Source: Rhizorhabdus histidinilytica (GTDB lineage: Bacteria; Pseudomonadota; Alphaproteobacteria; Sphingomonadales; Sphingomonadaceae). Taken from it: a DNA stretch of 64,000 nucleotides. The position numbers and the translations under genes were made by a program. The stretch spans positions 62,001-126,000 of the forward strand of contig NZ_FUYM01000004.1 in assembly GCF_900167915.1 (NCBI RefSeq), in the 5' to 3' direction. The notes beneath the pieces are model-generated. The model had not been told where the DNA came from, made no database searches, and saw only the letters and a list, made by a program, of their open reading frames with translations. Positions 29,015-46,870 of this stretch are shown one piece after another (positions within the stretch are counted from its first letter, which is position 1; every line of letters starts with the position of its first letter).

Positions 29015-31075
29015 CTAGACCACGAAATCGGCGGTGCCGATCCATGCCGGATCGACTGCGCCGAGGTCGACCGCCGAGTCCACCGTCGCGCCGCCGCTGC
29101 CCGAATAGAAGATATAGGTATCGGCGCCGACCTTCATCGCCGCCACCTCGCCCAGGCCGGGATGGGCGTCGAACAGATGCTGCGCCTCGGCGGCGGCCGC
29201 CGACAGGCTGGTCTGCGCCGCGCCGGTCAGGACCGCGGCGGGCCGGAAGCCGATCGACAGCCGGTCGACGCCGTCCTGGAAATCGGTGATTCGGTCGGGC
29301 GCCGCCAGGATCGAGCCGCTGCCCGCGAAGACGAAGCGGTCGATCCCCGCCCCGCCGGTCAGCAGGTCGGCGCCGAGATCGCCCGACAGGATGTCGTTGC
29401 CGTCGCCGCCGACCAGCGTGTCGTTGCCCTGCCCGCCGCGCAGATAGTCGTTGCCGACCCCGCCATCGACCTGGTCGTTGCCAAGATTGCCGTTGATGCT
29501 GTCATTGCCTTCGCCGCCCCGGATCGAGTCGTCGTCGGCGCCGCCGTTGACCCGGTCCGATCCGTTGCCGCCGTCGAGCGTGTCGTTGCCGGCATTGCCC
29601 TGCAGATAGTCGCTGCCGTCGCCGCCATCGATGAGGTCGGCCCCGTCCGGCCCGCCATTGGGCGACTGGCCATAGAGATGGTCGTTGCCCGCACCGCCAT
29701 GGATGGTGTCGGCGCCAGCCCCGCCCTGGATATTGTCATGCCCGCCGGTGCCGGTCAGCACGTCGTTGCCGGCCGGCGCCTGCCCCGGCGCGGAAGGCAG
29801 CTCCGACAGCGTATAGGCGCGGACATAGTCGATCTTGTAGTCGGCCAGCAGCGATCCCGTCGTCCCCGACGTCACCGCCAGGTTGAGGATCATGTAGAAG
29901 GGCTTGTGCATGTCGTCGGGGGTCGACGCCGTCTTCACGGCGGTCCCGTCGATATACCAGGTCAGCGAATCCTCGGTCCACAGCAGGCCGTAGCTGTGCA
30001 TTCCCGAGGTCGCGCCGTCGACGAAGGTCTTGGTGTAGGATTGGGTGTGCGTGCCCGTCTCCTTGGTGTGGAGCGTCTGGACGGCCTGTTCGGTGCCATA
30101 GGCCTCCATGATGTCGATCTCAGGCGGCCAGGAGCCGTCCGCCGGCATCAGCCAGAAGGCCGGCCACGCCCCCTTCTCGGCGGGCAGGTCCAGCCGCGCC
30201 TCGAAATAGCCGTAGGTCTGCGACCACACATCGCGCGTCGTGATCGCGCCCGACATATAGTCATAGTTCCACAGCGCGCCCTTTGCGTCGGTGGGCATGT
30301 CGCTGGCGGTGATGGTGAGCACGCCGTCGGCGATCCGGAACGGATTGAGACCGAGCTCGGTGGCACCGGTCCCCTTGAGCTGCGGATCGACGTAGATCTC
30401 CTCCTCGCCATTGCCGCGCAGCGTCCGGTTGTCGAGGCCGCTCTTGTAGTTGCCCCCGCCATACCAGGTCTTCCACGTGCCCCCGCCGCCGCCGCTCCAC
30501 AGATCGAAGCTGTCGAACTCATCGGCGAAGCTGAGCGTCAGGCCGGACCGGTCGAGCGGAAGCTGGAAATTGTCGGCGGTGAAGTCGCCGATCGAGGCGT
30601 TCCTGATCGTCACCATATCCTGGCCGGACAGGCGCAAGAGGACGTCGCCGCCCTGCTGCGTCATCGCGCTCACAACGGTCTGGAAGTTCTTGAAACTGGT
30701 GAGGCCGGCAAGGCGGATGACATCGGCGTCGTCCGCATTGCCCGGCTTGAAGTCATTGACGACGTCGTTGCCAGATCCCGTGCCGAAGATGAAGACGTCT
30801 GATCCGCCGCCACCGGTCAGCGTGTCGCTGCCGCCGCGTCCTTCGAGCTGGTTGGATTCGCCATTGCCGACGATCCGGTTGGCGAGCGCGTTGCCCACCC
30901 CGGCATAGCCGCCCCAGATCTCCAGATTCTCGACATTGTCGGGCAGGACATAGTTGGTCTGCGCGATCACCTTGTCGGTGCCGCCGCCCGCCTGTTCGAC
31001 AATATATTTCGGAACCGTACCAATAGAATAGGTATTCGAGGACGCATCCCCGATGATCTCGCCACTATAATTCAT
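29015..31075 (-). CDS. RTX-type secreted GH16 family glycanase
   Basis: A 686-residue extracellular endo-beta-glucanase-like protein. A first RTX stretch (GRGGSDTLTGGGGSDVFIFG, about 78-97) precedes the GH16 domain (about 180-425) with catalytic E319-I-D-I-M-E324, and a long block of GGxGxDxL/Ixx repeats follows (about 435-585). No Sec signal peptide is present, as expected for type I secretion with a C-terminal signal. The combination resembles ExsH, which trims succinoglycan in Sinorhizobium. It probably cuts the exopolysaccharide made by the locus to its right. No T1SS genes are in the window. Confidence 0.88.
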   Translation of the reverse strand: MNYSGEIIGDASSNTYSIGTVPKYIVEQAGGGTDKVIAQTNYVLPDNVENLEIWGGYAGVGNALANRIVGNGESNQLEGRGGSDTLTGGGGSDVFIFGTGSGNDVVNDFKPGNADDADVIRLAGLTSFKNFQTVVSAMTQQGGDVLLRLSGQDMVTIRNASIGDFTADNFQLPLDRSGLTLSFADEFDSFDLWSGGGGGTWKTWYGGGNYKSGLDNRTLRGNGEEEIYVDPQLKGTGATELGLNPFRIADGVLTITASDMPTDAKGALWNYDYMSGAITTRDVWSQTYGYFEARLDLPAEKGAWPAFWLMPADGSWPPEIDIMEAYGTEQAVQTLHTKETGTHTQSYTKTFVDGATSGMHSYGLLWTEDSLTWYIDGTAVKTASTPDDMHKPFYMILNLAVTSGTTGSLLADYKIDYVRAYTLSELPSAPGQAPAGNDVLTGTGGHDNIQGGAGADTIHGGAGNDHLYGQSPNGGPDGADLIDGGDGSDYLQGNAGNDTLDGGNGSDRVNGGADDDSIRGGEGNDSINGNLGNDQVDGGVGNDYLRGGQGNDTLVGGDGNDILSGDLGADLLTGGAGIDRFVFAGSGSILAAPDRITDFQDGVDRLSIGFRPAAVLTGAAQTSLSAAAAEAQHLFDAHPGLGEVAAMKVGADTYIFYSGSGGATVDSAVDLGAVDPAWIGTADFVV

Positions 31076-31204: not shown

Positions 31205-32374
31205 TTAGCGTGAGGTCAGGCGGCTGATCTCGGCAGCGGCGGCGAAGCCCGCCTCACTTGCATAGGTACCGATCCGCCCGAACGGCCCGATCGGGTCGCA
31301 CAGGTGCCAGAGCAGGCGCCGCCGCTTCGGCCAGGCGATCGCCGGGTCCTCGGGGGACAGGCTCATCGCGGCGAGCGTCGCCGGGTCGAGCGACCGCATC
31401 GGCCGCCTGACCGGCGCCGGCGGGAGCGCGACGGGCAGCAGCGCCCCCGCGCAGTCCCAGGCAAAGGCGAGAAGGTGACGAATGCCCTGCGCCCGCGCGA
31501 CGACGTCGAGCACATGGCGCTCCTGGTCGGACATGGCAAGCAGCTGCGCCGCGAGATCGGCGAGATAGCGCAGCGAATGCTCGCGATGGAAGGCCGCCTT
31601 GACGAAGCCGATCGCGGCAAGGAGGCAGGCGTGGATCGTCGAGAGCACCGGGATCTCGGCGCTGCCGAGCGCCATGCGGCGGCCATTGCCGATATAGGAC
31701 GCCAGCTCACGCGGTGCCGGGCAACCCGGCTGCTGGACGCGGTGGTGGAGATCGACGGTGGCGAGCGAACGGCCGGGCGGAACGAAATGCTGCTCTCCCA
31801 GATAATGGAGCCACCAGCGGCTCTCGCAGCGATCAGCCGGTGCATAGCCAAGCGCGCGCAGCACCTCCGCCGCGCGGTCATAGTCGTGGCGGTCGACCAG
31901 CAGGTCGAGGTCCGATGAGGGCCGGGCGAAATAATCATCATAGAGCGCACGGAGCAGCAGCGGCCCCTTGAGCACGACGAAACCGACGGAGGCCGCGTCG
32001 AGTGCGCCGCTCACCCGCTGCACGGTCGACAGGTTGACGCTGTTGATCATCAGCGACCGCTGACGGAACGCCTTGACGGCGGCGCCGACCTTCGGCGGCG
32101 CGGCGATCCCGCTGACGAGCAGGCCGTGCTGGACCTGAACGAGCAGCCGCCCGCGCGCCGCCATGCCGATCAATTCATCCCAGTCGAACCGGTCGCCGCG
32201 CGGCGGCAGCGGCCGTGCGACTCCGTCGAGCGCGCTCGCCAGCAGCGACAGCAACAGGACATGCTCGGCCCGACGATCGATCCCGGTCGCGACAGCCTCC
32301 GTCGTCACCGGACGATCGAACGCGCCGTCCAGCGCGGGCGCGAGACCGCCGACGGGGAGCGGTTCACTCGCCAT
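31205..32374 (-). CDS. Lasso-cluster nucleotidyltransferase family protein (N)
   Basis: A 389-residue protein of the NTP_transf_5 (uncharacterised nucleotidyltransferase) family. The signature FVVLKGPLLLRALYDDYFARPSSDLDLLVDRHDYDRAAEVL has the DxD acidic pair of the polymerase-beta fold. I use the ATG at 32374, which overlaps the exporter gene's end by 11 bases; an earlier start adds 12 residues. Homologous genes accompany kinase-containing lasso clusters, where they are proposed to add a group to the phosphorylated peptide. It is the last gene of the operon. Role inferred by context. Confidence 0.75.
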   Translation of the reverse strand: MASEPLPVGGLAPALDGAFDRPVTTEAVATGIDRRAEHVLLLSLLASALDGVARPLPPRGDRFDWDELIGMAARGRLLVQVQHGLLVSGIAAPPKVGAAVKAFRQRSLMINSVNLSTVQRVSGALDAASVGFVVLKGPLLLRALYDDYFARPSSDLDLLVDRHDYDRAAEVLRALGYAPADRCESRWWLHYLGEQHFVPPGRSLATVDLHHRVQQPGCPAPRELASYIGNGRRMALGSAEIPVLSTIHACLLAAIGFVKAAFHREHSLRYLADLAAQLLAMSDQERHVLDVVARAQGIRHLLAFAWDCAGALLPVALPPAPVRRPMRSLDPATLAAMSLSPEDPAIAWPKRRRLLWHLCDPIGPFGRIGTYASEAGFAAAAEISRLTSR

Positions 32375-34172
32375 GCGACGCCGGCCTGGTGACGGAGGCA
32401 GCCGGCGCACGGCCGGCCCGCTGCGGGGGAAAGGGGACGACGCCGTCGAGATCGGCGGATCCGCAGATATGGACGCGCCCCTGCTCGATCCGGACGACCT
32501 GGTCGGCGATTGCGGTGATCCGGGCGCGGTGGGCGATGATGAGGATCGCCATCGTCCCGCGCAGCCGTTCGAGCGAGCGGATGATCAGCGTCTCATTATC
32601 CTCGTCGAGCGCGCTGGTCGCCTCGTCGAGGATCAGCAGGTCGGGACGGCGCAGCAGCGCCCGGGCGAGCGCGATGCGCTGGCGTTCGCCGCCCGACAGG
32701 CGGATGCCGCGATCGGCGACGACGGTATCGAGCCCGGCCGGCATGCGCGCGACGAAGCCGGCCGCGCCGCTCGCCTCCAGCGCCGCCCACATCTGCGCCG
32801 GATCGGCACCGGGCGCGGCGACGGCGAGGTTGGCGGCGATGCTGTCGTTGAGCAGAAAGCCGTCCTGCGGGACATAGGCGACCCGATCGCGCCAGGCGCG
32901 CAGGCCGCAATGGGCGAGCGGCCGACCATCGAGCAGCACCCTGCCCGCGCTCGGCTCGACCAGCCCCATCACCATGTCGGCAAGCGTCGTCTTGCCGCTG
33001 CCCGAGGGGCCGGCAATGGCGGTGATCCGGCCGGCGGGAATGGCGAAGCTCACGTCACGAAGCACCGGGAGGCCTGCGCCATAGTCCATGCCGACCTGGT
33101 CGAACCGGATTTCCTGCCGCAGCGGGGGAATGGCGGCGAGCCCGGCGACTTCGGCCTTCTCGCGGTCGGCCTCGAACCGCGCGATCAGCCGCCGCGAATC
33201 CTGCCAGGCAGGCAGGTGCGAGAGGAGCTGCTGGAGCGAGTCCTGGATCATGTTGAAGCGCGGGCCGATCCGGACGAACAGGAACAGCAGCACCGCGATC
33301 CGCGCCAGCGGCAGGTGGAGCACCGCGACCGAGACATGGATGAAGCCGACCGCCGCGACCGCGCCGACCAGCTGGAACAGCAGTGTGCCGTTGGCGGTCG
33401 CGCGGGCGAAACGGATCATCTCCTCGCGTACGTCGCGGAGCATCGCCTCCAGCCGCGCGGCATAGCCCGCCTCGGCGTTGAACGCCTTGGCGACCTTCAT
33501 ACCGGCCAGGAACTCGGAGATCATGTGCTGCTGGTCGGCAAGCGAAGCGCCGAGCGTCTCGCCAAAGCGGGTCGCCCGGCGGCGAACCGGATAGAGCGCG
33601 AGCAGTACGACACTGCCGACGCCGATCGCGAACAGCGTCATCACCGGCGAGATCGCGGCGGCGAGCACCGCATAGATCGCCACCATGACCAGCGCCTGCA
33701 ACAGCAGCAGCAGGTTATAGACGGCGGCGCGGACCCGTTCGACGTCGCCGGTCAACGCCTGCTGAAGGTCGGCGGCACGGGTCGCCGCGACGCGGGTCCA
33801 GCGCGCGGCCCCGATCGCGCGGAACAGCCGCAGCCGGATCGCGTCGACGCAGAGTTGCATCATCCGCGCGACATGGACCGCCTTGAACCGGGTGAGGACC
33901 GCCTGCGCGGTGACGAAAGCCAGGAAGCAGCCGAGCAGCGGCACGAGGCTCAGCCTGGTGGCCGGATCGAACAGATGCCCGACCAGCGGCAAGCCCGCCA
34001 TCGGCACGCCGCCGCCCGCCCCGCCCGCGAACTGGAGCAAGGGGATCAGCAGCAGGATCGAGACGCCTTCGGAGAGGCTGCCGAGCAACAGCAGGACGAG
34101 CGCCATCATTCCCCGGCCGCCGCTGCGCCGCAGGACGAAGCCGGCGAAATCGGCTATCGGCCCGATCGTCAT
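32364..34172 (-). CDS. Lasso peptide ABC exporter (D), fused permease/ATPase
   Basis: A 602-residue half-transporter with five to six TM helices (for example VPLLGCFLAFVTAQAVLT, LLLLLQALVMVAIYAVLAAA, SPVMTLFAIGVGSVVLLAL) and an ATPase domain: Walker A GPSGSGKTT, Q-loop VPQDGFLLND, signature LSGGERQRIALARALL, Walker B LLILDEATSALDE, H-loop IIAHR. It probably exports the mature lasso peptide and confers immunity. It overlaps gene N downstream and follows the kinase gene by 34 bases. Confidence 0.85.
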   Translation of the reverse strand: MTIGPIADFAGFVLRRSGGRGMMALVLLLLGSLSEGVSILLLIPLLQFAGGAGGGVPMAGLPLVGHLFDPATRLSLVPLLGCFLAFVTAQAVLTRFKAVHVARMMQLCVDAIRLRLFRAIGAARWTRVAATRAADLQQALTGDVERVRAAVYNLLLLLQALVMVAIYAVLAAAISPVMTLFAIGVGSVVLLALYPVRRRATRFGETLGASLADQQHMISEFLAGMKVAKAFNAEAGYAARLEAMLRDVREEMIRFARATANGTLLFQLVGAVAAVGFIHVSVAVLHLPLARIAVLLFLFVRIGPRFNMIQDSLQQLLSHLPAWQDSRRLIARFEADREKAEVAGLAAIPPLRQEIRFDQVGMDYGAGLPVLRDVSFAIPAGRITAIAGPSGSGKTTLADMVMGLVEPSAGRVLLDGRPLAHCGLRAWRDRVAYVPQDGFLLNDSIAANLAVAAPGADPAQMWAALEASGAAGFVARMPAGLDTVVADRGIRLSGGERQRIALARALLRRPDLLILDEATSALDEDNETLIIRSLERLRGTMAILIIAHRARITAIADQVVRIEQGRVHICGSADLDGVVPFPPQRAGRAPAASVTRPASHGE

Positions 34173-34205
34173 CGCCTGCCCCCGATCCGGACCGCGCCCT
34201 GCATC

Positions 34206-35177
34206 TCAACGCTCGCCGAGCAAGGCGTGGACGAAGGCCACCGTTTCGTCGAGCCGATCGAGGCCCACCGGCACATGGAGCCGCGACACCTGCGCGGTAC
34301 GGGCGAGCCGGCCGCAGCGTTGTAGATGCTCGGCCTCCGCCGCTCCCGCCAGCACCGCGCGCCCGAAGCGCGCGATGTAGGAGAAGCGCATGACGGCGCC
34401 AAGCGCATCGAAGCCTTCGAGCGGCTCGACCATCGGCGCCTCGCCGCCGCGTTGCAGGACGAAGATATGGTCGGGCCGCACCTGCCGGTGGGAGAATCCC
34501 CCGCCGAGCCGGAACTGGCGCTTGGGCAGGCTGGCATGGGCCAGCGGCAGCGCCTCCGCGTCGCCGAGGTCGATCGCGGCCGAGCTTTCCTCGGACAGCT
34601 TGAGCTGGGCGAAGGCGGGCAGGATGCGCGGCACGAGCGGATCGACCAGGTCGATCGCCAGCAGGTCGTCGGTCAGCAGGCGATGGCCGGCCTCGACGAA
34701 CGCCCCCGCCGTGGTCGATTTGCCCGCCATCTTGTCGCCGACGAACACCGCGCTCCTGCCGCCGATCGCGACCCCGCTGGCGTGGAGCACCAGCGCGCCC
34801 CGCATATGCAGCATCAACCCGAACACCGGCCCCAGCAGCGGAAAGGCGAGCAGTTCCGCCGAGATGCCGGGATAGGGCTCGACATCGATCCGAGCGGGGC
34901 CGTGGAAGCGGAAGGCGGCGACACCGGGCCAGGCGAGATAATGGCCGCCATCCGGATCGAGGTCGATCACCACCCCGCTTGCTTCGGGCGGCAGCGGGCG
35001 ACCGCAGGGCTCTAACCGGATCGACAGGTCGGCGTCCCGGCCGGTCAGTTCGGACGGCGAGAGTTCGGGCAGCGGGATGTCGGAACGGATCGACAAGCCG
35101 AAGGCGAAATATTCGGTCGGGGGCGGCCCCTGAAGGGTCGCCGCCTCGCCGAACTCCTCGCGGCTGAGCTTCCTCAC
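34206..35177 (-). CDS. Lasso peptide kinase (HPr-kinase-like, K)
   Basis: A 323-residue protein. The P-loop GDKMAGKST (147-155, Lys153) and LHASGVAIGGRSAVFVGDKMAGKSTTAG match HPr kinase/phosphorylase-like serine kinases, followed by the conserved acidic LLTDDLLAID. In paeninodin-type clusters such kinases phosphorylate the C-terminal Ser of the precursor. Here the precursor ends in Ser, so the same reaction is expected. Its ATG overlaps the stop of the cyclase gene by 4 bases. Confidence 0.8.
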   Translation of the reverse strand: MRKLSREEFGEAATLQGPPPTEYFAFGLSIRSDIPLPELSPSELTGRDADLSIRLEPCGRPLPPEASGVVIDLDPDGGHYLAWPGVAAFRFHGPARIDVEPYPGISAELLAFPLLGPVFGLMLHMRGALVLHASGVAIGGRSAVFVGDKMAGKSTTAGAFVEAGHRLLTDDLLAIDLVDPLVPRILPAFAQLKLSEESSAAIDLGDAEALPLAHASLPKRQFRLGGGFSHRQVRPDHIFVLQRGGEAPMVEPLEGFDALGAVMRFSYIARFGRAVLAGAAEAEHLQRCGRLARTAQVSRLHVPVGLDRLDETVAFVHALLGER

Positions 35178-37048
35178 GCGGCGGCCTCCCTTTCGGCGAT
35201 GTCGGTCCAGCTCCCCGAAACCCGTTCGCGGTGGTCGAGCCAGACCGCCAGCATCAACACCCGCCAGGCCGCGAACAGCGACGCGCCGTCGACCGCCCGC
35301 CCCTGGTCGAGCAGCCGACCGATCGCATTCCGCGCGACGTCCATATCGACGAAGCGGCCGATCCCTGCCCTGTCGCGACCTGCCAGGTCGGCGAGGGCCG
35401 CGCGCCGGCGCAGCAGCGCATCGGCGAGCGCGGGCGCGAAATCATATTTGTCGGGCCGCAGCCGCACCGGATCCGGCAACAGCCCGGCCATGGCCTGCCG
35501 CAGGACATAGCGGGGCAGGCCATCGTTCAACTTGTGGTGCGACGGCAGCGACAGGCAATATTCGACCAGACGCAGGTCGTAGAAGGGATAGAGGGCGGCG
35601 ACCCCGGCCGCAGCGCCCATCCGGTCGAGCACCTCGAAGGCGTAGCCTTGCTGCGGCGCGGTCAGCAGTTCGACATGGACGTCGCGCTCGCAGTGGCGCG
35701 CCGAGCCCTTGATCGAGCGGTCGGCATGGCGGTCGGCAAGGTCGACCCGCGCGGCAAGGCCGGGTTCGACCAGCGCGTATCCGGCGGCTTCCGCCGGCCC
35801 GCCCCATCCAAGCCGGGCCTGGATCCGCGCCCGGCGCCCGCGTGCGAAGCGGACAAAGCGGTTGTGGCTCAGATAAGGGGACAGGATCGACCAGCGGCCG
35901 ACCCCGTAAAGGCCCGCGATCCCGGCACTCTCCCGCCAGAGCCGCCGCCAGTCGCCCCGCGCCGCAAGCTCGTTGAGACGCCCCAGCCCGTGCGACACGA
36001 CCTCGTCGCCGCCATGGCCATCGAGCAAGCGGGTCAGGCCCGCCGCCCGCGCCCGGCGGTAGAGGCGGCGCGACAGGCTGGCATTATAGGCGACGAAGGG
36101 CCCCTCCTGCTCGTCGATCAACTCGGGCAGCTCGGCAACCGGGTCGTGATCGGCGGCATCGATGAAGCGCGGGTCGAAGCCTCCTTGGCCGAGAACCGTC
36201 TCGATGAATGGCCGCTCGTTCCAGCCGGGCGTGTCGTCCAGCATCATCGACAGGCTCGGCATCGGTCGCACGCCTTGCGCCGCCTGGACGGCGACCGACG
36301 AGGAATCGAGCCCGCCGCTCAGCATCACCCCGACGCCGTCGCCCCGCGCGCGGCGACGGGCGACCGCCTCGGCGAAGAGGGCGCGGAACCCCTCGGCCGC
36401 GTCGGCGCGCTCCTCGACCGGCACCTCCTGTGGATGCCAATAGCGCGCGATCCGCGCGCCGGCCTCCGTCAGCGTCAGGCTGTGGCCGGGCGGCAAGCGG
36501 CGGATGCCGTGGTGCAGGGTGATCGCGCCGTCGGCATAGCCGCCGGCCAGCAGGTCGGCGAGGCCCTGTTCGTCGATCGCGTCGCCAACCGCGGGAAGCG
36601 CGGTCAGGAAGCGGGTAATGCCCGCCGCGGCGAACAGCCGGTCAGCAAGCGCATAATAGAAGGGGCGGATACCGAAATGGTCGCGTGCGCAGAAGATCGA
36701 GCCCCGCCGTTCGTCGCGGATCACGAAGGCGAAGTCGCCGGCCAGACGGCGGACGCAATCGCCGTCCCAGCGGCGATAGGCGGCAAGGATGACGTCGGCA
36801 TCGGACGATCCCGGATGGAGCCGCAGCGCCGCGATCAGGTCGCGGCGATTGTCGAGCCGCGCATCGGCCGCGACGAGCATCGTCGCGTCACCAGCCCCTG
36901 CGATCGGCCCGGAGGCCGCCATTGCCCAGGTGCGGCCCCGCCGCCAGTGGCAGGGCCCACGGGCGCGCAACGCAGCCTCGGCACGATCAGGCAGGGCTTC
37001 GGCCATGGGGGCGCCGTCGCGGCGGAACAAGGCCGCGAAACAGCTCAT
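35174..37048 (-). CDS. Lasso cyclase (C), asparagine-synthetase-like
   Basis: A 624-residue homolog of asparagine synthetase B. The N-terminal Ntn domain (MSCFAALFRRDG...RDHFGIRPFYYA) has Cys at position 3 instead of 2, so glutaminase activity is doubtful; this loss is usual in lasso cyclases. The C-terminal ATP-binding domain has VMLSGGLDSSSVA (Ser244-Gly-Gly-Leu-Asp248-Ser). Lasso cyclases adenylate the ring-closing Asp/Glu side chain of the core and join it to Gly1. It overlaps B2 by 4 bases. Stand-alone asparagine synthase is unlikely in this context. Confidence 0.88.
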   Translation of the reverse strand: MSCFAALFRRDGAPMAEALPDRAEAALRARGPCHWRRGRTWAMAASGPIAGAGDATMLVAADARLDNRRDLIAALRLHPGSSDADVILAAYRRWDGDCVRRLAGDFAFVIRDERRGSIFCARDHFGIRPFYYALADRLFAAAGITRFLTALPAVGDAIDEQGLADLLAGGYADGAITLHHGIRRLPPGHSLTLTEAGARIARYWHPQEVPVEERADAAEGFRALFAEAVARRRARGDGVGVMLSGGLDSSSVAVQAAQGVRPMPSLSMMLDDTPGWNERPFIETVLGQGGFDPRFIDAADHDPVAELPELIDEQEGPFVAYNASLSRRLYRRARAAGLTRLLDGHGGDEVVSHGLGRLNELAARGDWRRLWRESAGIAGLYGVGRWSILSPYLSHNRFVRFARGRRARIQARLGWGGPAEAAGYALVEPGLAARVDLADRHADRSIKGSARHCERDVHVELLTAPQQGYAFEVLDRMGAAAGVAALYPFYDLRLVEYCLSLPSHHKLNDGLPRYVLRQAMAGLLPDPVRLRPDKYDFAPALADALLRRRAALADLAGRDRAGIGRFVDMDVARNAIGRLLDQGRAVDGASLFAAWRVLMLAVWLDHRERVSGSWTDIAEREAAA

Positions 37049-37476
37049 CGCAGGCCGGCCTGCAGATCGATGAGCGGCGTGAAGCGAGCGAGTTGCTCAT
37101 CCTGTCCGCCGATCAGCACGACGTCGCCGTCGACCAGCCAGGCATGCGCGGCGATCCGCCCGTCCTCACGCTGGCGGACGCCGATCCGGACGCGGGTCGG
37201 ATGACCGGCACGAGCGCGGAGATAATGGAGGGCGAGCGCCTGGGTGAGGCAGGTCGCCCCCGGCACGATCCGCGAGCAATGCTTCACGCACCATATGTGG
37301 AGATGCGCGTGCGTGCCGGACGGGCGCGCGGGCGCCGCCTTCGCGATATGATCGAGCACGGTGCGGTAACCAAACAGGGCGAGACCGATGCGGATGGCGG
37401 CCACGACCGCGAGGCATTGCGCGAGCAGGCGCCCATGCCGCCACGCGAGTGCGGCGCGCCTACGCAGCCGGAGCAT
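37045..37476 (-). CDS. Lasso leader peptidase (B2), transglutaminase-like
   Basis: A 143-residue protein from the ATG at 37476 (MLRLRRRAALAWRHG). The transglutaminase-like core has Cys76 in PGATCLTQAL and His111 in IAAHAWLVDGDV with Asp nearby, the catalytic triad of lasso B2 proteases, which cut off the leader. The N-terminal helix resembles other B2 proteins. The start overlaps the B1 gene by 17 bases; another ATG is 15 bases earlier. Longer in-frame starts run through B1 out of phase and are not credible. Confidence 0.85.
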   Translation of the reverse strand: MLRLRRRAALAWRHGRLLAQCLAVVAAIRIGLALFGYRTVLDHIAKAAPARPSGTHAHLHIWCVKHCSRIVPGATCLTQALALHYLRARAGHPTRVRIGVRQREDGRIAAHAWLVDGDVVLIGGQDEQLARFTPLIDLQAGLR

Positions 37477-37771
37477 GCCCGGTCCAGGCATCGACCCCGA
37501 TCTCGACCAGGCCGGCCGCGCGCATCGCCTCCAGCAGGGTATCGAGGTCGCGCGTGCAGCGATCGGGATCGACATCGAAGGTCTCGAGAACCGACCGGCG
37601 CAACGCGCCGACCTCGGCATGGTCGCCGAGCCGGCTCCAGACATGGGCGCTCACCCGGTTAAGCTTGAAATAGCGCCGCGTCCGCAGATTGAGCAGGACG
37701 GCACCACCATCGAGATCGCAATGAACCACGTCGCCACCGGGCGTGACGAGCGAAGACGGATTGATCGGCAT
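37460..37771 (-). CDS. Lasso RRE protein (B1), PqqD-like
   Basis: A 103-residue PqqD-fold protein: VVHCDLDGGAVLLNLRTRRYFKLNRVSAHVWSRLGDHAEVGALRRSVLETFDVDPDRCTRDLDTLLEAMRAAGLV has the three-strand wing and the helices of a RiPP recognition element. It binds the leader (YxxP-x-L motif) and hands it to B2. The gene lies 90 bases after the precursor gene and overlaps B2. Confidence 0.87.
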   Translation of the reverse strand: MPINPSSLVTPGGDVVHCDLDGGAVLLNLRTRRYFKLNRVSAHVWSRLGDHAEVGALRRSVLETFDVDPDRCTRDLDTLLEAMRAAGLVEIGVDAWTGHAPAA

Positions 37772-37861
37772 CTGTTCCCCGACAGGATCTTCAAGGACGG
37801 GAGACGGACGAAGATGGCCAACTGCGGTGTCCCGCAGCTGGCCAGTTCGTCGCGTCTCCGA

Positions 37862-38002
37862 TCAGGAAAAGGTCAGGTCGGAAACCGGGGTTCCTGCGGA
37901 GAAGCTGGCGTCGAGGACCGAACCGTTCGCTCCGCCTTCGGTGATCTCCTCGAACAGGCCCGCATCGATCAGTTCGGGTGTCTCATATTCGGCTTTGGGC
38001 AT
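37862..38002 (-). CDS. Lasso peptide precursor (A)
   Basis: A 46-residue peptide with a strong GGGAGG site 6 bases before the ATG at 38002; a longer in-frame version from 38098 runs through the leader region and is rejected. Leader residues 1-22 contain Y6-E-T-P9-E-L11 and G15, the known B1 recognition pattern, and Thr21 at -2 before the cut after Glu22. The core begins GGANGSVLD, allowing a Gly1-Asp9 nine-residue ring, and continues ASFSAGTPVSDLTFS. Its last residue is Ser, the expected kinase target. The core is 24 residues. I know of no described lasso peptide with this core. Confidence 0.82.
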   Translation of the reverse strand: MPKAEYETPELIDAGLFEEITEGGANGSVLDASFSAGTPVSDLTFS

Positions 38003-38619
38003 TACAACCTCCCATGAACGCAAAAAGACCGGCCATGTGAGCCAGCCGCCCCATAGCCGGTCGACCGAAAGACTGTTCCCCGCATCGAAATCTGTCAATA
38101 ACGCAGCAAAGTTTACTTAAGCACTTTCACGGTTCATCGACCATTCATCATAGTCCGAACCAAACACAATCATCCTTTTTTACAGATAATCTTCATTATA
38201 TTTTACAAAGATTTTGCGATCTTCATTAAAGATAAGCTTGAAGATTTTAACGACATATCGTCACGATGTCAGATTTGATCGAGAAATTACATGGATTTTA
38301 ACTTTGGTTAATTGATCCTCTTGAACAGATCGACTTTCCCCGGCCGACCAGCCTATCATTTGGTCATCGCCGCTGGCGGATCATCTTCCTCCGTAAAATC
38401 CCCTATCCGCCATTACTCGCCGGCACCGGTTCGCCGAGGAGCGGGCAGCACCACCGCCCATTGCGGACGCGGTACGATGGGCCGTGGGGATCGCGAGGCC
38501 GTTCCGCACCCGTTGGCACCCATTTCCGGCAGTGCCCTGCCCTTGGTGCCCGCGAGGATGCTGCGTCGCAGCTTCGCGGCAGGCGGGCTGGCGCGAATCG
38601 AGGACCGGGAAACCCGGCC
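38003..38619. promoter_or_regulatory. AT-rich control region of the lasso operon
   Basis: A 617-base gap upstream of the precursor gene; about 38100-38330 is strongly AT-rich in an otherwise GC-rich locus. A TTGACA (minus strand, 38099-38094) could be a -35 element. Further up, the sequence ATCTTCATTA occurs at 38189-38198 and 38219-38228, with an inverted TTGAAGAT at 38238-38245, a possible regulator site. The remaining part (38330-38619) is GC-rich; frames there show no ribosome site or recognisable domain. Confidence 0.45.
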
Positions 38620-39627
38620 TCAGACCATCAGGGAGCGGAGCTTGCGGACGAATGCGGTACCGATCGGCGTACTGCGGAGCGCCCGCAGCACCGCCTGCCG
38701 CATGCCATGCCCCATCGTGTCGGGCAGCGACTTTTCCCGCCGGAAGCGTTCGCGCGCGGCATCGACCTGATGCTGCGGCCAGACGATCCGTTGCGTCTCG
38801 ATGCTCAGCACGGGGCGGCCGCTGAGATCGGCGATCTCGACCGCCTGGCGATCCTCGCTTTCGACGAACAGACAGGCATTGGTCTTGCGATAGACCCGCG
38901 CCTTGTGAACCGCATGCATCTTCAGCCGTCGCCGTTCCTCGGCCGAGGGCAGGTCGAGCATCCACAGCCGCTCATAGTCGACGCCGTGCGCGCGCAGCCA
39001 TTGCTCGGTCTGGGCACGATATTTCTCCAGCCGGCTCGTCACCAGATGCTTGATCGGGACTCCTGGCAGATGAAGCGGCCTCGCGTTGACCAGAAAGCGA
39101 CCATAGCGTTCGCCGTCGTCATTCTCGTCCTCGGCAGGATCGTGGCAGAGCACCCCGTCGATATCGAAGCAGGCGTCGCCCAGCCGCCGATGCCGCATCA
39201 GGTTCCACTGGAAGATGCGCGGGTGGCCGACGATCTCCAGCCAGACGTCGATCTCAGGATGGTCCTCGCGCGCCGCATAGACCGCGCAATAGGTGATGTC
39301 GGCGCCGGGCCGCGCCGCCGCCAGCCGGTTCCGCACCTCGACCATCGACTCTCCCGACAGGATGCTGTCGTCGACGACGAGCACCCGTGCCGGCGCCGCC
39401 GATCCGTCGACCCGCATCGTCGGCCGGACGGTCCGGCCGACATAGGGGTCGAGCCCGGCGACGAAGCTCTCCAGATCGAGGAAGGGCAGGTTGAGATGGG
39501 TAGCGAGCATATTTGCCGCGAGCATGCCGCTGCGCGGTACCCCGACGATCAGATCGATGTCCGCCGGCAAGCGATAGCTGTTCCGCGCAATGGTGGCGGC
39601 AAGGTCGGCAAAAGAGCGATATTCCAT
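38620..39627 (-). CDS. Phosphoribosyltransferase-HAD-like fusion protein
   Basis: A 335-residue protein. The N-terminal type I phosphoribosyltransferase domain has the PRPP loop VLVVDDSILSGES and IVGVPRSGMLAAN. The C-terminal half is HAD-like: DACFDIDGVLCHDP (motif I), LVTSRLEKYRAQTEQWLR (motif II). I take the ATG at 39627 (MEYRSFADL), with GGAGT upstream; a longer in-frame version is not supported. Such fusions occur in sphingomonad and rhizobial polysaccharide loci. The substrate is unknown; a phosphorylated sugar or base is likely. Confidence 0.7.
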   Translation of the reverse strand: MEYRSFADLAATIARNSYRLPADIDLIVGVPRSGMLAANMLATHLNLPFLDLESFVAGLDPYVGRTVRPTMRVDGSAAPARVLVVDDSILSGESMVEVRNRLAAARPGADITYCAVYAAREDHPEIDVWLEIVGHPRIFQWNLMRHRRLGDACFDIDGVLCHDPAEDENDDGERYGRFLVNARPLHLPGVPIKHLVTSRLEKYRAQTEQWLRAHGVDYERLWMLDLPSAEERRRLKMHAVHKARVYRKTNACLFVESEDRQAVEIADLSGRPVLSIETQRIVWPQHQVDAARERFRREKSLPDTMGHGMRQAVLRALRSTPIGTAFVRKLRSLMV

Positions 39628-39825
39628 CGCCGGGACACTCCATATCCCCTGTCCATGACCCCGCAGCGCACCCCTACGCCGCACCCAATAGGCTGAAGCT
39701 ATTGGATTATTCCCCCTGTGTAATTGGCCATGCTGCAAAGCGGTATCACCGCAGGGCGAAGCGTTGCGCCGCGCGGGACAGCATCGGTTTGTGCGGTGCG
39801 GAAAGCATCGGCGCCCCGCCGCTGA

Positions 39826-40944: not shown

Positions 40945-41074
40945 ATGTGACTTCCATCACAATCTATTCATGTACTGCTACATTACTGAAACACTTTGTT
41001 AAGATGCTTTGCCTCCCCGGCCACTCTGTGCTAGGGGATTTTACGGGGATTGTATGCGTAACACAGGAGGCGCT

Positions 41075-42052
41075 ATGCGCACCGTTTCCGCTGTGGTTCT
41101 GACCTACAACCGGAAAGACTTGGTCGAGGAATGCCTGAAGGCGATCCAGGCCCAGACCGTCCCGGTCGAACGGATCATCGTCATCGACAACGGCAGCAGC
41201 GACGGCACCGCCGAGATGCTGGCCCGCAACTGGGCGGAGCGGATCGAACTCCATATCCTGCCGAAGAATATAGGCGCAGCAGGCGGCTTCAACACCGGCA
41301 TCCGGATGGCCTATCGAGCCCAGGCCGATGGGATCTGGGTGATGGACGACGACGTCATCCCGGATTCCGACGCCCTGGAAAAGCTGCTCGACGCCGACCG
41401 GCTGCTGCGCGCGCGGGAGATCGACCCGCCCTTCGTGGTGTCGACGGCACGAACGCCGGGCGGGATCGTCACCAACGTCCCCGACATCGACCTGAGCCGC
41501 AACAGCCTGTCCTACCAGAACTGGCCCGAGCTGCTCGAACATTGCCTGGTGCCGGTGCGGCGCGCGACCTTCGTATCGATCCTGATGCCGCGTGCGACGC
41601 TCGACCAGTTCGGCCTGCCGATCGCGTCGATGTTCATATGGGGCGAGGATACCGAATATACGACGCGGATCACCCGCGAACGGCCCGGCTACCTGGTCGG
41701 CGACAGCAAGGCCGTCCACGTCCGCCAGCTCGACGGAAAGCTCGACATCCGTACCGAGGTCAACCCGACGCGGATCGGCTATCATTATTACTTCCTGCGC
41801 AACCAGGCCTATAACGTCCGCCGTTACCAGTCGAAGGGCGCCTTCATCCGCCATGTGGCTCGACAGGGCAAGCTGGCGCTCCAGCTCCTCCTCTCGGGCC
41901 GGTTCGAAAAGGCGCGGATCGTCGCGGCCGGTACGCTGTCGGGCATGCTGTTCCGCCCGGTGATCGAGTCGGCCGATGCGCCGGTCGACATGTCGGGATG
42001 GCAATCCTTCATGATTGTCGCCGACAAGCTGCTGCAGCAGACCGCGGCCTGA
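41075..42052 (+). CDS. Family 2 glycosyltransferase
   Basis: A 325-residue GT-A enzyme. VSAVVLTYNRKDLVEECLKAIQAQ, IIVIDNGSSDGT and the DxD-type WVMDDDVIPD are typical; the later WGEDTEYTTRI is the acceptor-site ED motif. It resembles rhamnosyl- and galactofuranosyltransferases (GlfT-like). AGGAGG lies 5 bases before the ATG at 41075, fixing the start. It is convergent with the epimerase operon. Confidence 0.9.
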   Translation: MRTVSAVVLTYNRKDLVEECLKAIQAQTVPVERIIVIDNGSSDGTAEMLARNWAERIELHILPKNIGAAGGFNTGIRMAYRAQADGIWVMDDDVIPDSDALEKLLDADRLLRAREIDPPFVVSTARTPGGIVTNVPDIDLSRNSLSYQNWPELLEHCLVPVRRATFVSILMPRATLDQFGLPIASMFIWGEDTEYTTRITRERPGYLVGDSKAVHVRQLDGKLDIRTEVNPTRIGYHYYFLRNQAYNVRRYQSKGAFIRHVARQGKLALQLLLSGRFEKARIVAAGTLSGMLFRPVIESADAPVDMSGWQSFMIVADKLLQQTAA

Positions 42053-42090
42053 GCCGGCCGCGGCGCCCGCCCGGCGGCGAGGCGCGGCGA

Positions 42091-42639
42091 TCAGAATACC
42101 GAATCCGCCGACAGGTCGATCAACGGCCAGTTGGCGTCCTTGTCGGATATCGTCGTGACGGGCAGCGGCCAGCTTATCGCGAGCAGCGGGTCGCTGTAGC
42201 GCACTCCGCCCTCCGCCTCGGGCGTATAGGGCGCGGTGACCAGATAGCTGACCTCGATATCGTCGACGAGCGTCTGGAAGCTGTGCGCAAACCCGGGCGG
42301 TACGTAGAGCTGACGCCGGTTGTCGGCCGACAGCTCGAACCCCTCATGCTTCAGATAGGTCGGCGATCCGCTACGCATGTCGACGATCACGTCGAGGATC
42401 CGGCCGCGCACGCAACGGACCAGCTTCGCCTCGGTATGGGGCGGTCGCTGATAGTGCATGCCGCGGATCGTGCCCGCCTGCGCCGACACCGACATGTTCT
42501 GCTGGACGAAGTCGGTCAGCAGGCCATGCGCCTCGAATTCCTGGCGGCAGAAGGTGCGCGCGAACATGCCCCGCTCGTCGCCGCGCGGTTCGACGTCGAT
42601 CAGCCAGGCGTCCTTCAGCGTCGTTTCGTGGAAGATCAT
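42091..42639 (-). CDS. RmlC-like sugar-nucleotide 3,5-epimerase
   Basis: A 182-residue cupin. DERGMFARTFCRQEFEAHGLLTDFVQQNMSVSAQAGTIRGMHYQRPP, KLVRCVRGRILDVIVDMRSGSPTY and LYVPPGFAHSFQTL contain the catalytic His of RmlC (GMHYQ) and the Asp/Tyr pair. Because the neighbouring operon makes CDP-activated sugar, the substrate is probably a CDP-4-keto sugar, not dTDP. It is 10 bases after the SAF-domain gene. ATG at 42639 with GAGGGAG upstream. Confidence 0.85.
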   Translation of the reverse strand: MIFHETTLKDAWLIDVEPRGDERGMFARTFCRQEFEAHGLLTDFVQQNMSVSAQAGTIRGMHYQRPPHTEAKLVRCVRGRILDVIVDMRSGSPTYLKHEGFELSADNRRQLYVPPGFAHSFQTLVDDIEVSYLVTAPYTPEAEGGVRYSDPLLAISWPLPVTTISDKDANWPLIDLSADSVF

Positions 42640-42649
42640 GGAAGCTCCC

Positions 42650-43975
42650 TCAGGCCGCCCGCAGCTTATCGGCGAAATGCTCCTGCTGCTCGGCATAGAG
42701 CCGGTCGATCAGGCGCCCCGGAGGCACCGCGACGTCATCCCGGCCGATCGGCTGGTCCTCGGCCACCGGTCGCACCAGCGTGCAGCCGAGCGCAAGACCG
42801 AGCGGCAGCAGCCGGTCGCGCTCGATGACGTCGGCATTCTCGGCGACGCCATAGGCCTCGTAGCCGCCGAGCTCGCCGATCACCTCGCCGGGCTGGAGCA
42901 GCTTCTTGGCCATCGCGATCACGCCGACCCGCGGCGCGCCTTGCGGCGCCAGCACCGCATCATCGAACAGCGCTGCCCGCGCGATCGAGGTTGGCACCTC
43001 GAAATGGCAGAGATGATAGGGGGTGTAGAAGCAGTAATAGGGGCCCGTTCCCAGCTTGTAGAGGTTCAGGAAATGCTGCTGCCGGGGATCATCATGCGTC
43101 CCCAGCACGAACACGCCCGGCCCCGGCCGGGCGCCGACCACGTAATCGACCAGGCCCGCGGACGCGCCGTCGAGCGCATCCGCGAAGGCCGCAACGGTCT
43201 CCTCCAGCGGGACCAGGGGGGCTGTCGGATTCCCGCCGGAGAAGTCTGGCCCGATCATCCCGCGACGGGCGACGGAAAAGCCCGTGCCGTTGGCGACGAT
43301 CGCTTGTTCGTAGGAAATCTTGGTGCCGTCCGCGAAGGACGCGACCATCGCCGGCTTCTGCCCCCATTTTTCGGCAAAGGCGCGCTGCGTGGTCGGATTG
43401 CGCTTCGGGTCGTGCAGGCCCTTGATGTTGCCGCACAGCACCGGCTTCACGCCGATCCCCGCGACAAAGCGGAACAGGTTCATCTGCACGCCCGGCTGGT
43501 CGCCGTCGGAGAAGCTGTAGACCAGTCCCGCGGCATCGGCCTTGCGCTTGAGGATCGGGCCGACGGTGCCGTCGACCTCGGCGTTCATCTGGACGACGTG
43601 CTTGCCCGCGCGGATCGCGGCGACGATCACCGCGGCGGCATGCTCGATCGATCCAGTCACCTCGACGACGACGTCGATGCCGTCGGCCTCGGCCAGGCCG
43701 ATCGCGTCCTCGGTGACGGCGGGCTGACCGGCGGCGATCGCGGCCTCGACGGCAAGCCGGGAGTCGCAGCGGCGCGGCGCGATCCCGAGCGCGTCGAACG
43801 CCGCGACGGCGGGCCCGATATTGCGGTTGGCGAGCGCCGCCACCGTCATGCCCGGCGTCACCGTCATGATCTGGCGGACGATCGCGGCACCCTGGAACCC
43901 GGCGCCGACGATGCCGACGCGTATCGGCCGCCCCTCTTCCTCGCGACGCCGCAGCGCCGTGTCGACCAGGATCAT
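42650..43975 (-). CDS. SAF-domain NAD(P)-dependent oxidoreductase
   Basis: A 441-residue protein. IRVGIVGAGFQGAAIVRQI is a Rossmann NAD(P) site with similarity to homoserine dehydrogenase, and VVVEVTGSIEHAAAVIVAAIRAGKHVVQMNAEVDGTVG follows; the C-terminal LLQPGEVIGELGGYEAYG looks like a SAF domain. In sugar-nucleotide operons with a cytidylyltransferase such proteins are predicted to make branched or deoxy sugars, but I know of no proven reaction. Start MILVDTAL at 43975. Confidence 0.75.
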   Translation of the reverse strand: MILVDTALRRREEEGRPIRVGIVGAGFQGAAIVRQIMTVTPGMTVAALANRNIGPAVAAFDALGIAPRRCDSRLAVEAAIAAGQPAVTEDAIGLAEADGIDVVVEVTGSIEHAAAVIVAAIRAGKHVVQMNAEVDGTVGPILKRKADAAGLVYSFSDGDQPGVQMNLFRFVAGIGVKPVLCGNIKGLHDPKRNPTTQRAFAEKWGQKPAMVASFADGTKISYEQAIVANGTGFSVARRGMIGPDFSGGNPTAPLVPLEETVAAFADALDGASAGLVDYVVGARPGPGVFVLGTHDDPRQQHFLNLYKLGTGPYYCFYTPYHLCHFEVPTSIARAALFDDAVLAPQGAPRVGVIAMAKKLLQPGEVIGELGGYEAYGVAENADVIERDRLLPLGLALGCTLVRPVAEDQPIGRDDVAVPPGRLIDRLYAEQQEHFADKLRAA

Positions 43976-43995
43976 CGATAGTCTCCCATCGCAGC

Positions 43996-44769
43996 CTACC
44001 AGACCTTCCAGGGGGCTCCATTGGCCCACAATTCCTCGAGCAGATGCTTGTCGCGCAGCGAGTCCATGCTCTGCCAGAAGCCATCATGATGATAGCTGGC
44101 GAGCTTGCCGCGCTCGATCAGCCGCTCCATCGGCTCGGCTTCGAAGGTGGTGTGATCGCCGTCGATCAGGTCGAGCAGCTCGGGCTCGCAGACGAAGAAG
44201 CCGCCGTTGATCAGGCCGCCGTCGGCCGCCCCCTTCTCGCGGAAACCCTGCACCCTGCCCCCATCCTCGTCGATCCGGAGCGCGCCGTAGCGGCCCGGTT
44301 GCGTCACCGCGGTCAGCGTGCACCAGGCGCCCGCCGCCTCGTGCGCGGCGACCACCGCCGGAATATCGACATTGCTGACACCGTCGCCATAGGTGAGGCC
44401 GAAGCGCCCGCCCTCGAGCAGGTGGCGCGCCCGCAACAGACGCCCGCCGGTCAACGTATCGTGGCCGGTGTCGACGATGGTGACGCGCCAATCCTCCCCG
44501 ATCGCCTCGAGCCAGTCGACGTCGCCCGATTTCAGGTCGATCGTGAAATCGCTCGCGCGGCTGCGATAGTTCAGGAAATAGTCGCGGATATATTCGACCT
44601 TGTAGCCGCCGATCACCACGAAGTCCTTATAGCCGTAATGGGCATAGATCTTCATGATGTGCCACATGATCGGACGGCCGCCGATCTCGACCATCGGCTT
44701 CGGCCGGATGGTCGTCTCCTCGCTCAGGCGCGTGCCGAAGCCACCCGCCAGCAGGGCGATCTTCCTCAT
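43996..44769 (-). CDS. rfbF: Glucose-1-phosphate cytidylyltransferase
   Basis: A 257-residue enzyme making CDP-glucose. IALLAGGFGTRLSEETTIRPKPMVEIGGRPIMWHIMKIYAHYG is the nucleotide-binding loop of RfbF, with YGDGVSNVDI and the GGLINGGFFVCEPEL sugar site. GGAGG precedes the ATG at 44769. It is in an operon with an SDR (upstream), the SAF protein and the epimerase. No gene clearly matching CDP-glucose 4,6-dehydratase is present. Confidence 0.92.
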   Translation of the reverse strand: MRKIALLAGGFGTRLSEETTIRPKPMVEIGGRPIMWHIMKIYAHYGYKDFVVIGGYKVEYIRDYFLNYRSRASDFTIDLKSGDVDWLEAIGEDWRVTIVDTGHDTLTGGRLLRARHLLEGGRFGLTYGDGVSNVDIPAVVAAHEAAGAWCTLTAVTQPGRYGALRIDEDGGRVQGFREKGAADGGLINGGFFVCEPELLDLIDGDHTTFEAEPMERLIERGKLASYHHDGFWQSMDSLRDKHLLEELWANGAPWKVW

Positions 44770-44786
44770 TCCGCCATCCTCCGCGA

Positions 44787-45857
44787 TCAGGCCGCGATGG
44801 CGGCGGGATCGGACGGCGACAGCCAGCTCAGCGCCTCCGACAGGCGACCGCTGGCGATATGGTCCTGCAGCACTCGCAGCCGGATCAGTGGCGAGGCACG
44901 GAAATCTGGATCGGCGAACCCCATCCGGCGCATCCCGGCGATCAGCTCCTCGATAGACCGCGACAGCGTGACCTGCGGCATATGCTGCGGGGCGAGCCGG
45001 GCGAACGCGCCGAAATCCACCTGGTACGAGCGGCTGTCGGCCGGTGCATCGGTGTTGATGCTGACGCTCGTCCCCGGCAGTGCGGCGGCCACCGCGCCGG
45101 CCAGATCGCGCACCTGGTAATTGGCGCTGTCGATACCGGCATTGACGACCAGGAAGCGACCGCCATTGTCCGCCGGACGGGTCGCCCCCCATTCGATCGC
45201 GCGCGCCATGTCGGCGGTGTCGATCAGCGGGCGCCAGGGCGTGCCGTCGCTCAGCACCGTGATCTGGCCACTGGTCAGGGCACAGGCGACGAAATCGTTG
45301 AGGACGAGGTCGAGCCGCAGCCGGTCGGACATGCCGCAGGCGGTGGCGAAGCGCAGGCAGGTGACGACCATGCCACCGTCGATCGCCTCCAGCTCGCGCT
45401 CCGTGCCGATCTTCGATGCCGCATAGTCGGTGACGGGGTTCAGCGGATCGCCCTCGCGGCGCGGGCCGCCCTCGGCCACGCCATAGACGCTGCAACTCGA
45501 CGCGAAGACGAAGTTCCGGACACCCGCCGCCGCGGCGAGCCGGCCGATCCGCGCCGAGGCATCCTGGTTGATCGCGCGCGTGACCGCAGCGAAGCGGCTG
45601 CCCATAGGATCGTTCGAGACGGCGGCGAGATGGACGACCGCGTCATAGCCCTTGAGCGTGCCTTCATCGAGGTCGCGGACATCGCCGAAGAACTGGCGAT
45701 CCAGCTTGCGCTCGGGCAGCTCGGTGGCGCCGGTCAGGCAATGGGCAAAATAGCCATTGTCGAAGCCGTCGATCATCGCGGTCGGAAAGACCTCGCGGAA
45801 ATGCCGGACGACGGCCGGGCCGACATAGCCCATATTGCCGGTGACGAGGATACGCAT
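44787..45857 (-). CDS. NAD-dependent epimerase/dehydratase (extended SDR)
   Basis: A 356-residue SDR starting MRILVTGNMGYVGPAVVRHF. Nucleotide-binding TGxxGxxG-like motif at the N-terminus, VVHLAAVSND, FASSCSVYG and the catalytic YAASK. It is the first gene of the CDP-sugar operon and may be the 4,6-dehydratase or an epimerase. The start at 45857 is chosen because it places the Rossmann motif at the terminus; longer frames are unlikely. Confidence 0.87.
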   Translation of the reverse strand: MRILVTGNMGYVGPAVVRHFREVFPTAMIDGFDNGYFAHCLTGATELPERKLDRQFFGDVRDLDEGTLKGYDAVVHLAAVSNDPMGSRFAAVTRAINQDASARIGRLAAAAGVRNFVFASSCSVYGVAEGGPRREGDPLNPVTDYAASKIGTERELEAIDGGMVVTCLRFATACGMSDRLRLDLVLNDFVACALTSGQITVLSDGTPWRPLIDTADMARAIEWGATRPADNGGRFLVVNAGIDSANYQVRDLAGAVAAALPGTSVSINTDAPADSRSYQVDFGAFARLAPQHMPQVTLSRSIEELIAGMRRMGFADPDFRASPLIRLRVLQDHIASGRLSEALSWLSPSDPAAIAA

Positions 45858-46870
45858 AGACACTTCCTTTCCAGATAAGCCACTGCCAGAGGCGCGAGCC
45901 TCCGGTGCCCCCCGGCACAGTCGATCGACCGGCGCCTTTTCGGACTTCATCCGAAAACGCCGCCGGCACATCCCCGAGTAACTTCAGGTCAGGACAAACC
46001 TTGGATCGGTTTGGTAACGTCCAAATAGGATCATGAACCGACCGACCCGTCAACTGGAATTTGTGCAACGCAACCAGTTGACATCCCCACGATCTTAAAG
46101 CAGCCTCCAATATCGATCCGTTTCATGACGAGATCGCAACAATTCATTTTTTATATTTAACCACGGTCAGGGGTGGCACCGGATTTACCGGAGTAATGCC
46201 TTATGGCTTTTATATTATCACCACTTCACATGGACTTGATCTCCCTAGCATCCATTCGACGGAAACCGGATGGACTCATAGGGATGACGCAGGTCAGCCG
46301 CACAAGGCCAAAGAATGAAGCTGGGATTTTCCAAGGCATCGCCGCCATCCCGGGCGATGGAATGTTGCTATGCAGCAGAGCCCCTCGTCATAGTGAGCGC
46401 GGGAGACCGATTCGTCTCCGCGATCATTCCGCCACCCTGGGACCAGTTACAGCAAATAACTTCGTCCATTTCCATTTCAAATTTGTAGATTTCGTTCTCG
46501 AAACCATCAGTTCAGCGATAGAATGGTTCGCTTTATCGTTTCGGATCATATCCGGTATCATAGACAGCATTTTTACCCTGCATCCGACAGGTCACGACAA
46601 TGATCGCCATCATCGCGGATTCGGGCGGCATGACCTTGGTAACTACTTTCAGCTCGACACGGCTTTAGACCATTTCACCGCCCGGACACCTCGGCCGGTC
46701 GCGGTAGAGACGGGTCGGGATCGTCCGCCTGCCATGGCCGCAGGGCCGCTGGTCGCATCGTATCTCGCTTTTCCAGCCGGACGCGACCAGCTTCGCCCGC
46801 CTTGCGAGGCATTGCGCAGGAAAAGGTGCCGCCGCGCCGTCCGGTGCGAACGCGAAGGAGTATGCGTCCC
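45858..46870. other. Gene-free divergent region, about 1 kb
   Basis: A long gap between the CDP-sugar operon (minus) and the exported protein gene (plus). Part of it (about 46120-46660) is AT-rich. A 223-codon plus frame is open here but has no ribosome site, no domain and an unlikely composition. Promoters for both sides are expected, but I cannot place them. No tRNA or repeat seen. Confidence 0.5.

Follow-up and report, generated by a model that had tools for sequence, protein, structure and literature searches.

The gene order A-B1-B2-C-K-D, in which a precursor (A) is followed by a PqqD-like RRE protein (B1), a leader peptidase (B2), a macrolactam cyclase (C), a peptide kinase (K), and an ABC exporter (D), was described for a proteobacterial lasso-peptide cluster in 2016, and Sphingobium yanoikuyae ATCC 51230 (SyanA/SyanK) carries this order with a tailoring kinase (PMC5067487). 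The paeninodin cluster (pade) of Paenibacillus dendritiformis has a split B1/B2, an HPr-like kinase with the H-K-D-D motif that is required in lasso kinases (PMC9266682), a C-terminal Ser, and an ABC exporter, but its order is C-A-K-B1-B2-D (PMC5067487). SyanK and ThcoK phosphorylate the C-terminal Ser of the precursor (PMC9266682). A C-terminal Ser is also the target in the pseudomycoidin cluster (psm) of Bacillus pseudomycoides, where the kinase is accompanied by a nucleotidyltransferase-like gene (N); in Escherichia coli, PsmN puts one or two hexoses on the phosphate (PMC9266682; PMC8498205), and a nucleotidyl step followed by a host glycosyltransferase remained possible there (PMC9266682). 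Here, we describe a seven-gene cluster of this kind in a 64,000-nucleotide stretch of Rhizorhabdus histidinilytica (contig NZ_FUYM01000004.1, positions 62,001 to 126,000; referred to as the window), which borders an exopolysaccharide locus and is likely to specify a class II phospho-lasso peptide, which may belong to that adjoining polysaccharide system.

All seven genes lie on the minus strand in the order A-B1-B2-C-K-D-N, and each protein falls into the family expected for it, although D is recognized only as an ABC exporter of general type; this confirms the coordinates and families proposed for the cluster in the initial annotation. The cluster is a fresh example of the already described proteobacterial kinase type, with N after D, and, because its order is the published one for that type, it is not an odd borrowing from Firmicutes. 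Its likeness to the S. yanoikuyae cluster was judged by description and not by sequence; the position of N after D sets it apart, and the C-terminal Ser phosphorylation shown for SyanK (PMC9266682) is only predicted here. The initial annotation had seen paeninodin/pseudomycoidin logic in the locus; the chemistry of that proposal held, whereas a paeninodin-type gene order was rejected in favor of the proteobacterial one (PMC5067487). Clusters of the paeninodin kind are reported to lie near capsule loci in Bacilli, and the present cluster lies near an exopolysaccharide locus. Pseudomycoidin comes from another phylum, and our cluster is known from its genes alone; the intact KG and DxD motifs that mark an N of the pseudomycoidin type were recognized by family and residues rather than by comparison with PsmN. 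The linear polyphosphorylated peptide (lpp) clusters of Bacillota combine an RRE, an HprK-like kinase, a nucleoside triphosphate transferase, and an MsbA-like exporter with polysaccharide loci (PMC13381572), but they have a signal-peptidase-like protease, no cyclase, and a phosphate on Ser3. Similarly, the Bsf cluster of Bradymonas sediminis contains A, B1, B2, C, and D with a kinase and a nucleotidyltransferase (PMC10368454), but BsfK modifies Ser3, and the Bsf leader has Ile at position -2, where Thr is found here.

The trio of RRE, B2 protease, and C cyclase is present according to the family searches, and the similarity to PF05402, NF033537, and PF00733 is what hidden Markov model searches had been expected to find (Table 1). 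Lasso clusters of the alphaproteobacterial isopeptidase type (astexin/sphingopyxin kind) occur in this order, where many B2 matches have long intact-B-like frames. The present cluster differs in having a split B and an ABC exporter, and its annotated flanking genes include neither an isopeptidase nor a TonB receptor. On the exporter and the absence of such a peptidase among the annotated neighbors, we rejected this type, which is hardly tenable for the locus and from which the cluster had already been set apart. Elsewhere in the same genome, outside the window (G000:C42:210547-210915; L081), there is a second lasso B2-type match above the cut-off in a 234-amino-acid, intact-B-like frame, and its contig has no PF02397 (sugar transferase) gene.

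Precursor A matches the lasso leader model NF033521 (E value of 1.9e-4, above its cut-off) and has the features required of a lasso precursor, namely, a leader motif, Thr(-2), a small residue 1, and Asp or Glu at positions 7 to 9; in the leader/core alignment, TEGGANGSVLD places Thr(-2), Gly1, and Asp9. The window has 646 small reading-frame starts, and none of them except A (two nested starts) fitted a relaxed lasso-precursor pattern. The ratio of nonsynonymous to synonymous substitution rates (dN/dS) of the precursor was 0.05 to 0.13 against congeners (four comparisons with computable dS), and its dN was the lowest of the seven genes in 5/5 congener comparisons, with these estimates resting on 46 codons and a small sample. 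The precursor is under purifying selection in congeners and, being also the sole pattern match in the window, it is not a chance open reading frame. The cluster is a genuine, conserved lasso-peptide gene set, and a lasso peptide with a Gly1-Asp9 ring is almost certainly made by it. The computed mass of the Gly1-Asp9-cyclized, otherwise unmodified core GGANGSVLDASFSAGTPVSDLTFS is 2238.0441 Da, in agreement with the earlier hand-summed value of 2238.04 Da, for which the leader/core split and the ring had been placed correctly; with one phosphate, the same lasso has a mass of 2318.0104 Da. An identical core is found in two other genomes of the genus (L049 and L051, one given as Sphingomonas sp. 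Root720), and no paper on this peptide was found in the open literature.

Across 15 precursors, including those of other genera and of Paracoccus and Sulfitobacter plasmids, Thr(-2), Asp9, and the C-terminal Ser do not vary; each of the 15 lies upstream of B1-B2-C-K genes and has Ser as its last residue. The tails mostly follow the pattern F..GTP[FVL]..[LV]T[FL]S across the relatives (L054 to L060 and the Paracoccus and Sulfitobacter plasmids), those of L058 and L059 being longer and still ending in Ser. The invariance of this residue accords with the C-terminal Ser being the residue that SyanK and ThcoK phosphorylate. The putative kinase carries H132, the P-loop GDKMAGKST (K153), and D170-D171; its H, K, S, D, and D residues are invariant in 15 relatives, and its profile finds solved HPr kinases (HprK; 4.8e-8). 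Thus, it is very probable, by analogy with the characterized kinases, that Ser24 is phosphorylated. Phosphorylation of an internal Ser or Thr, as by BsfK at Ser3, is improbable: both BsfK and LppK target Ser3, and the core here offers Ser6, Ser11, Ser13, and Ser19, but the C-terminal Ser is the sole Ser kept in every K-adjacent precursor, the internal ones vary, and core position 3 is Ala. Two of the related precursors, those of L058 (6191) and L059 (10625), have a Cys at core position 4 and another in the tail, which is six residues longer, so that these peptides may be phosphorylatable lassos with a disulfide between ring and tail (class III-like). Additionally, the Sulfitobacter indolifex plasmid encodes a second, unannotated lasso precursor (L121:12857, minus strand) with the core AGQGGLTLDASFPAGTPFKELTTP, which lacks a C-terminal Ser and lies about 2 kb from the precursor at L121:15051 that ends in Ser. 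In the latter (TTKSGTTLDAGF...), alignment on Thr(-2) and Asp9 would make core residue 1 a Thr, an unusual ring closer.

The N protein matches PF14907, as do the N proteins of all 15 relatives, and contains the motifs K148-G149, D167-x-D169, and D220-L-H-H, of which K148, G149, D167, and D169 are invariant in these relatives. The families and conserved residues of K and N therefore support the kinase/nucleotidyltransferase pair that had been recognized earlier. A search with the N profile found no relative among solved structures, and AlphaFold models of N and K (two-sequence alignments) were discarded, with mean predicted local distance difference test (pLDDT) values of 34 and 31. To judge from PsmN, it is moderately likely that the phosphate is the target of N.

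Fourteen genomes of the genus were compared, and five besides that of the window carry K (69 to 91% identity), with A, B1, B2, C, K, D, N, and the flanking genes in syntenic order; the nearest named relative of K is from Sphingomonas sp. Root720 (82% identity). Related clusters are found in seven further species of the family and on two Rhodobacterales plasmids, of Paracoccus sp. MC1862 and S. indolifex, where they lie among polysaccharide genes, and the A-B1-B2-C-K-D order is common to the window and 12 relatives. A more distant kinase-bearing cluster in Thalassobaculum adjoins glycosyltransferases. A match on a plasmid of Rhizorhabdus wittichii DC-6 was set aside as a lone, partial kinase-like gene among transposases. 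The position of N bears on a reading in which the lasso is made as proposed while N serves polysaccharide synthesis and not the peptide. The remaining carriers of the family have N upstream of the lasso genes, in most cases encoded on the other strand, and the Paracoccus and Sulfitobacter plasmids have it kilobases away from them. In the more distant congeners, N also shows the lowest conservation among the proteins of the cluster (56%). All of this would suit such a role. However, N overlaps D by 47 bp in the window and directly follows it in the five congeners, N is nearby in every carrier examined, and PsmN acts on a phospho-lasso peptide, so that we regard a purely polysaccharide function of N as doubtful.

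A feature that the initial annotation missed is that the lasso cluster borders a Wzx/Wzy exopolysaccharide locus, which extends from 41.0 kb to the window end by Pfam matches. It comprises a GT2 glycosyltransferase, RmlC, a sugar epimerase, a glycosyltransferase fusion, UDP-glucose dehydrogenase, GH16, the initiating sugar transferase Bac_transf PF02397 (53783), Wza (55400), Wzy (56046), a beta-barrel protein (57427), a Wzz/BY-kinase (58725), Wzx (60908), and another GT2. On the opposite flank lies an EglC-like GH16 glycanase; in L052 and L053, two tandem EglC-like regions (positions 1-2710) stand beside the lasso cluster. In five noncarrier congeners, the 20 kb downstream of glmS contain no island genes except UDP-glucose dehydrogenase in two. 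Since the island genes are missing there, the cluster and the exopolysaccharide island appear to be gained or lost in the genus as one block at glmS.

The same setting recurs among the relatives. A PF02397 gene lies 10 to 29 kb from K, and a PF02563 (Wza) gene lies on the same contig within about 30 kb, in each of the 13 kinase-type carriers. The controls were lasso clusters whose B2 matches lay in long intact-B-like frames, which had no nearby K homologue, and which came from genomes of at most about 20 contigs; this list was fixed in one step with the search for the marker. PF02397 was found within 35 kb in 13/13 carriers versus 0/29 control clusters, some of which had no PF02397 marker on their contig at all, and the nearest control cluster was 63 kb away from the marker. 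The Fisher p value was 4e-11 raw, 3e-8 with the genus of the window counted once, and 4e-6 by genus, and the proximity expected at a random position is 5 to 11% per genome. Among other B2 loci in carrier and congener genomes, 2/9 were near PF02397. The B2 loci G404:C15:97320 and G405:C12:883808 of the genus also lie within 20 to 30 kb of PF02397, the former with another kinase-like match about 4 kb away. The sugar transferase frames fall into two kinds, of about 520 to 580 amino acids in the genus of the window and about 230 to 270 amino acids in the other carriers, which argues against one inherited block. In one carrier (L057:12268-13215), an exosortase (EpsH) gene adjoins the divergent N and links this carrier to an exosortase-type polysaccharide locus. 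In Bacilli, paeninodins and linear polyphosphorylated peptides often colocalize with capsular polysaccharide loci, and a role in biofilms has been suggested (PMC13381572); for Alphaproteobacteria, no report of such linkage was found in the open literature, most subscription papers lying outside this scope.

Several points weigh against a phospho-lasso peptide tied to the polysaccharide system. The 35-kb limit was chosen after the carriers had been seen, the carriers are related and represent few independent lineages (five genera and two plasmids), and other kinase-bearing split-B clusters were near PF02397 in only 3/10 cases; the linkage may be due to inheritance or to a shared insertion hot spot. 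K scores far under the curated cut-offs, and the function of N is known from a single system, PsmN, in which a host glycosyltransferase could contribute.

Antibacterial activity is known for several proteobacterial lasso peptides. A narrow-spectrum, microcin-like product would make the island a mere variable hot spot and the phosphate or sugar a means of self-protection or export, and the variability of the island within the genus and the plasmid-borne Sulfitobacter copy among transposases would fit such a weapon. In contrast to a fast-changing weapon, the precursor has the lowest dN and a tail kept across two orders, no immunity-type gene was recognized besides D, and the other lasso types of the order lack the polysaccharide setting (0/29); this explanation seems unlikely to us. 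Because the precursor is constrained and the cluster is linked to polysaccharide genes, we consider a polysaccharide role, for which the linkage is the sole basis, likelier than an antibiotic one, and we put the chance that the peptide has such a role at about even.

In the pathway that we propose, B1 would bind the leader, which has the motif YETPEL, and present it to B2, and K, helped by B1, would phosphorylate core Ser24 in precursor A. B2 would cleave after Glu22, leaving the conserved Thr at position -2, C would close the ring between the amine of Gly1 and the side chain of Asp9, with the tail threaded through it, and N may modify the phosphate by adding either one or two hexoses or a group of nucleotidyl type. 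The lasso product would be exported by D, and the secreted peptide might then act on, modulate, or join the polymer of the adjoining Wzx/Wzy system. We infer every enzymatic step from characterized homologues; the gene content, motifs, conservation, and polysaccharide linkage were observed directly. A much more speculative extension, to which we give little credence, is that the phospho-lasso peptide is built covalently into the exopolysaccharide or acts as a factor dedicated to its assembly or regulation, with N coupling the tail-end phosphoserine to a sugar in the polymer or in a precursor of it and with such conjugates in both Gram-negative and Gram-positive bacteria. The linkage to polysaccharide loci hints at a role for phosphorylated lasso peptides, a poorly understood class: the proximity to capsule loci remarked for Bacilli in a 2026 paper (PMC13381572) is now seen, with a control, in Alphaproteobacteria. 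If the linkage reflects function, the role is directly testable in soil Sphingomonadaceae, and lasso peptides gain a role other than that of antibiotics.

Table 1. Features of the lasso-peptide cluster and its surroundings in the window
Feature	Coordinates	Strand	Basis
A, lasso precursor, 46 aa	37862..38002	-	ATG with GGAGG upstream; NF033521 match
A leader MPKAEYETPELIDAGLFEEITE	37937-38002	-	
A core GGANGSVLDASFSAGTPVSDLTFS, 24 residues	37865-37936	-	
RNA hairpin in A-B1 gap, probable attenuator	37800..37859	-	Folding energy, stem conservation
B1, PqqD-like RRE	37460..37771	-	PF05402 PqqD (2.9e-15); related to solved TbiB1 (5v1u; 1.3e-5)
B2, leader peptidase	37045..37476	-	NF033537 lasso_biosyn_B2 (1.7e-20, above cut-off); PF13471; start 37476 or 37491
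C, asparagine-synthetase-like macrolactam cyclase	35174..37048	-	PF00733 (3.3e-46), GATase_7; NF033535 lasso cyclase (8e-132; score 441, below curated 525-bit exception cut-off); SGGLDSSS ATP motif
K, HPr-kinase-like peptide kinase	34206..35177	-	TIGR04352 and PF07475 weak, under their cut-offs; solved-HprK profile match
D, ABC exporter (permease + ATPase)	32364..34172	-	PF00664, PF00005
N, PF14907 nucleotidyltransferase-like protein	31205..32410	-	PF14907 (1.5e-32)
AT-rich stretch 5' of A, probable promoter region	38100..38340	.	Base composition
PRT, phosphoribosyltransferase-domain protein	38620..39738	-	PF00156
EglC-like GH16 glycanase with RTX repeats, island flank	29015..31075	-	PF00722, PF00353
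Exopolysaccharide locus	41009..63956	.	Pfam matches

The genes are closely spaced, with 90 bp between A and B1, overlaps of 4 bp between B2 and C and between C and K, 33 bp between K and D, and an overlap of 47 bp between D and N. The longest B2 open reading frame would overlap B1 by 185 bp, which we rejected as a start-codon artifact; the sequence and the full-length alignment from 37476 in congeners favor the ATG at 37476 (or 37491) as the true start of B2, with a short overlap with B1.

Within the genus, the PRT gene is present in 6/6 carriers and 0/8 noncarriers, and a 52% identical homologue occurs on the Paracoccus plasmid that carries the lasso and exopolysaccharide genes. Because it has no match in L054 to L060, the family's remaining lasso loci, it was rejected as a lasso gene and fits the polysaccharide island better. 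Its true start is probably near 39627.

The A-B1 gap folds into a hairpin of -56.7 kcal/mol (z score of -8.25), the stem of which is retained in six congeners. Most pairs of the inner stem are invariant and one has changed on both sides, which gives only slight support by covariation. The A-B1 gaps of L054 to L057 also form strong stems, with a U run after the stem, and the gap of L060 has no strong fold (z score of -0.85). The hairpin is a probable attenuator that would yield more A than B1-N transcript. The 240-bp stretch 5' of A has a GC content of 34%, versus 66% for the window, and is probably the promoter region.

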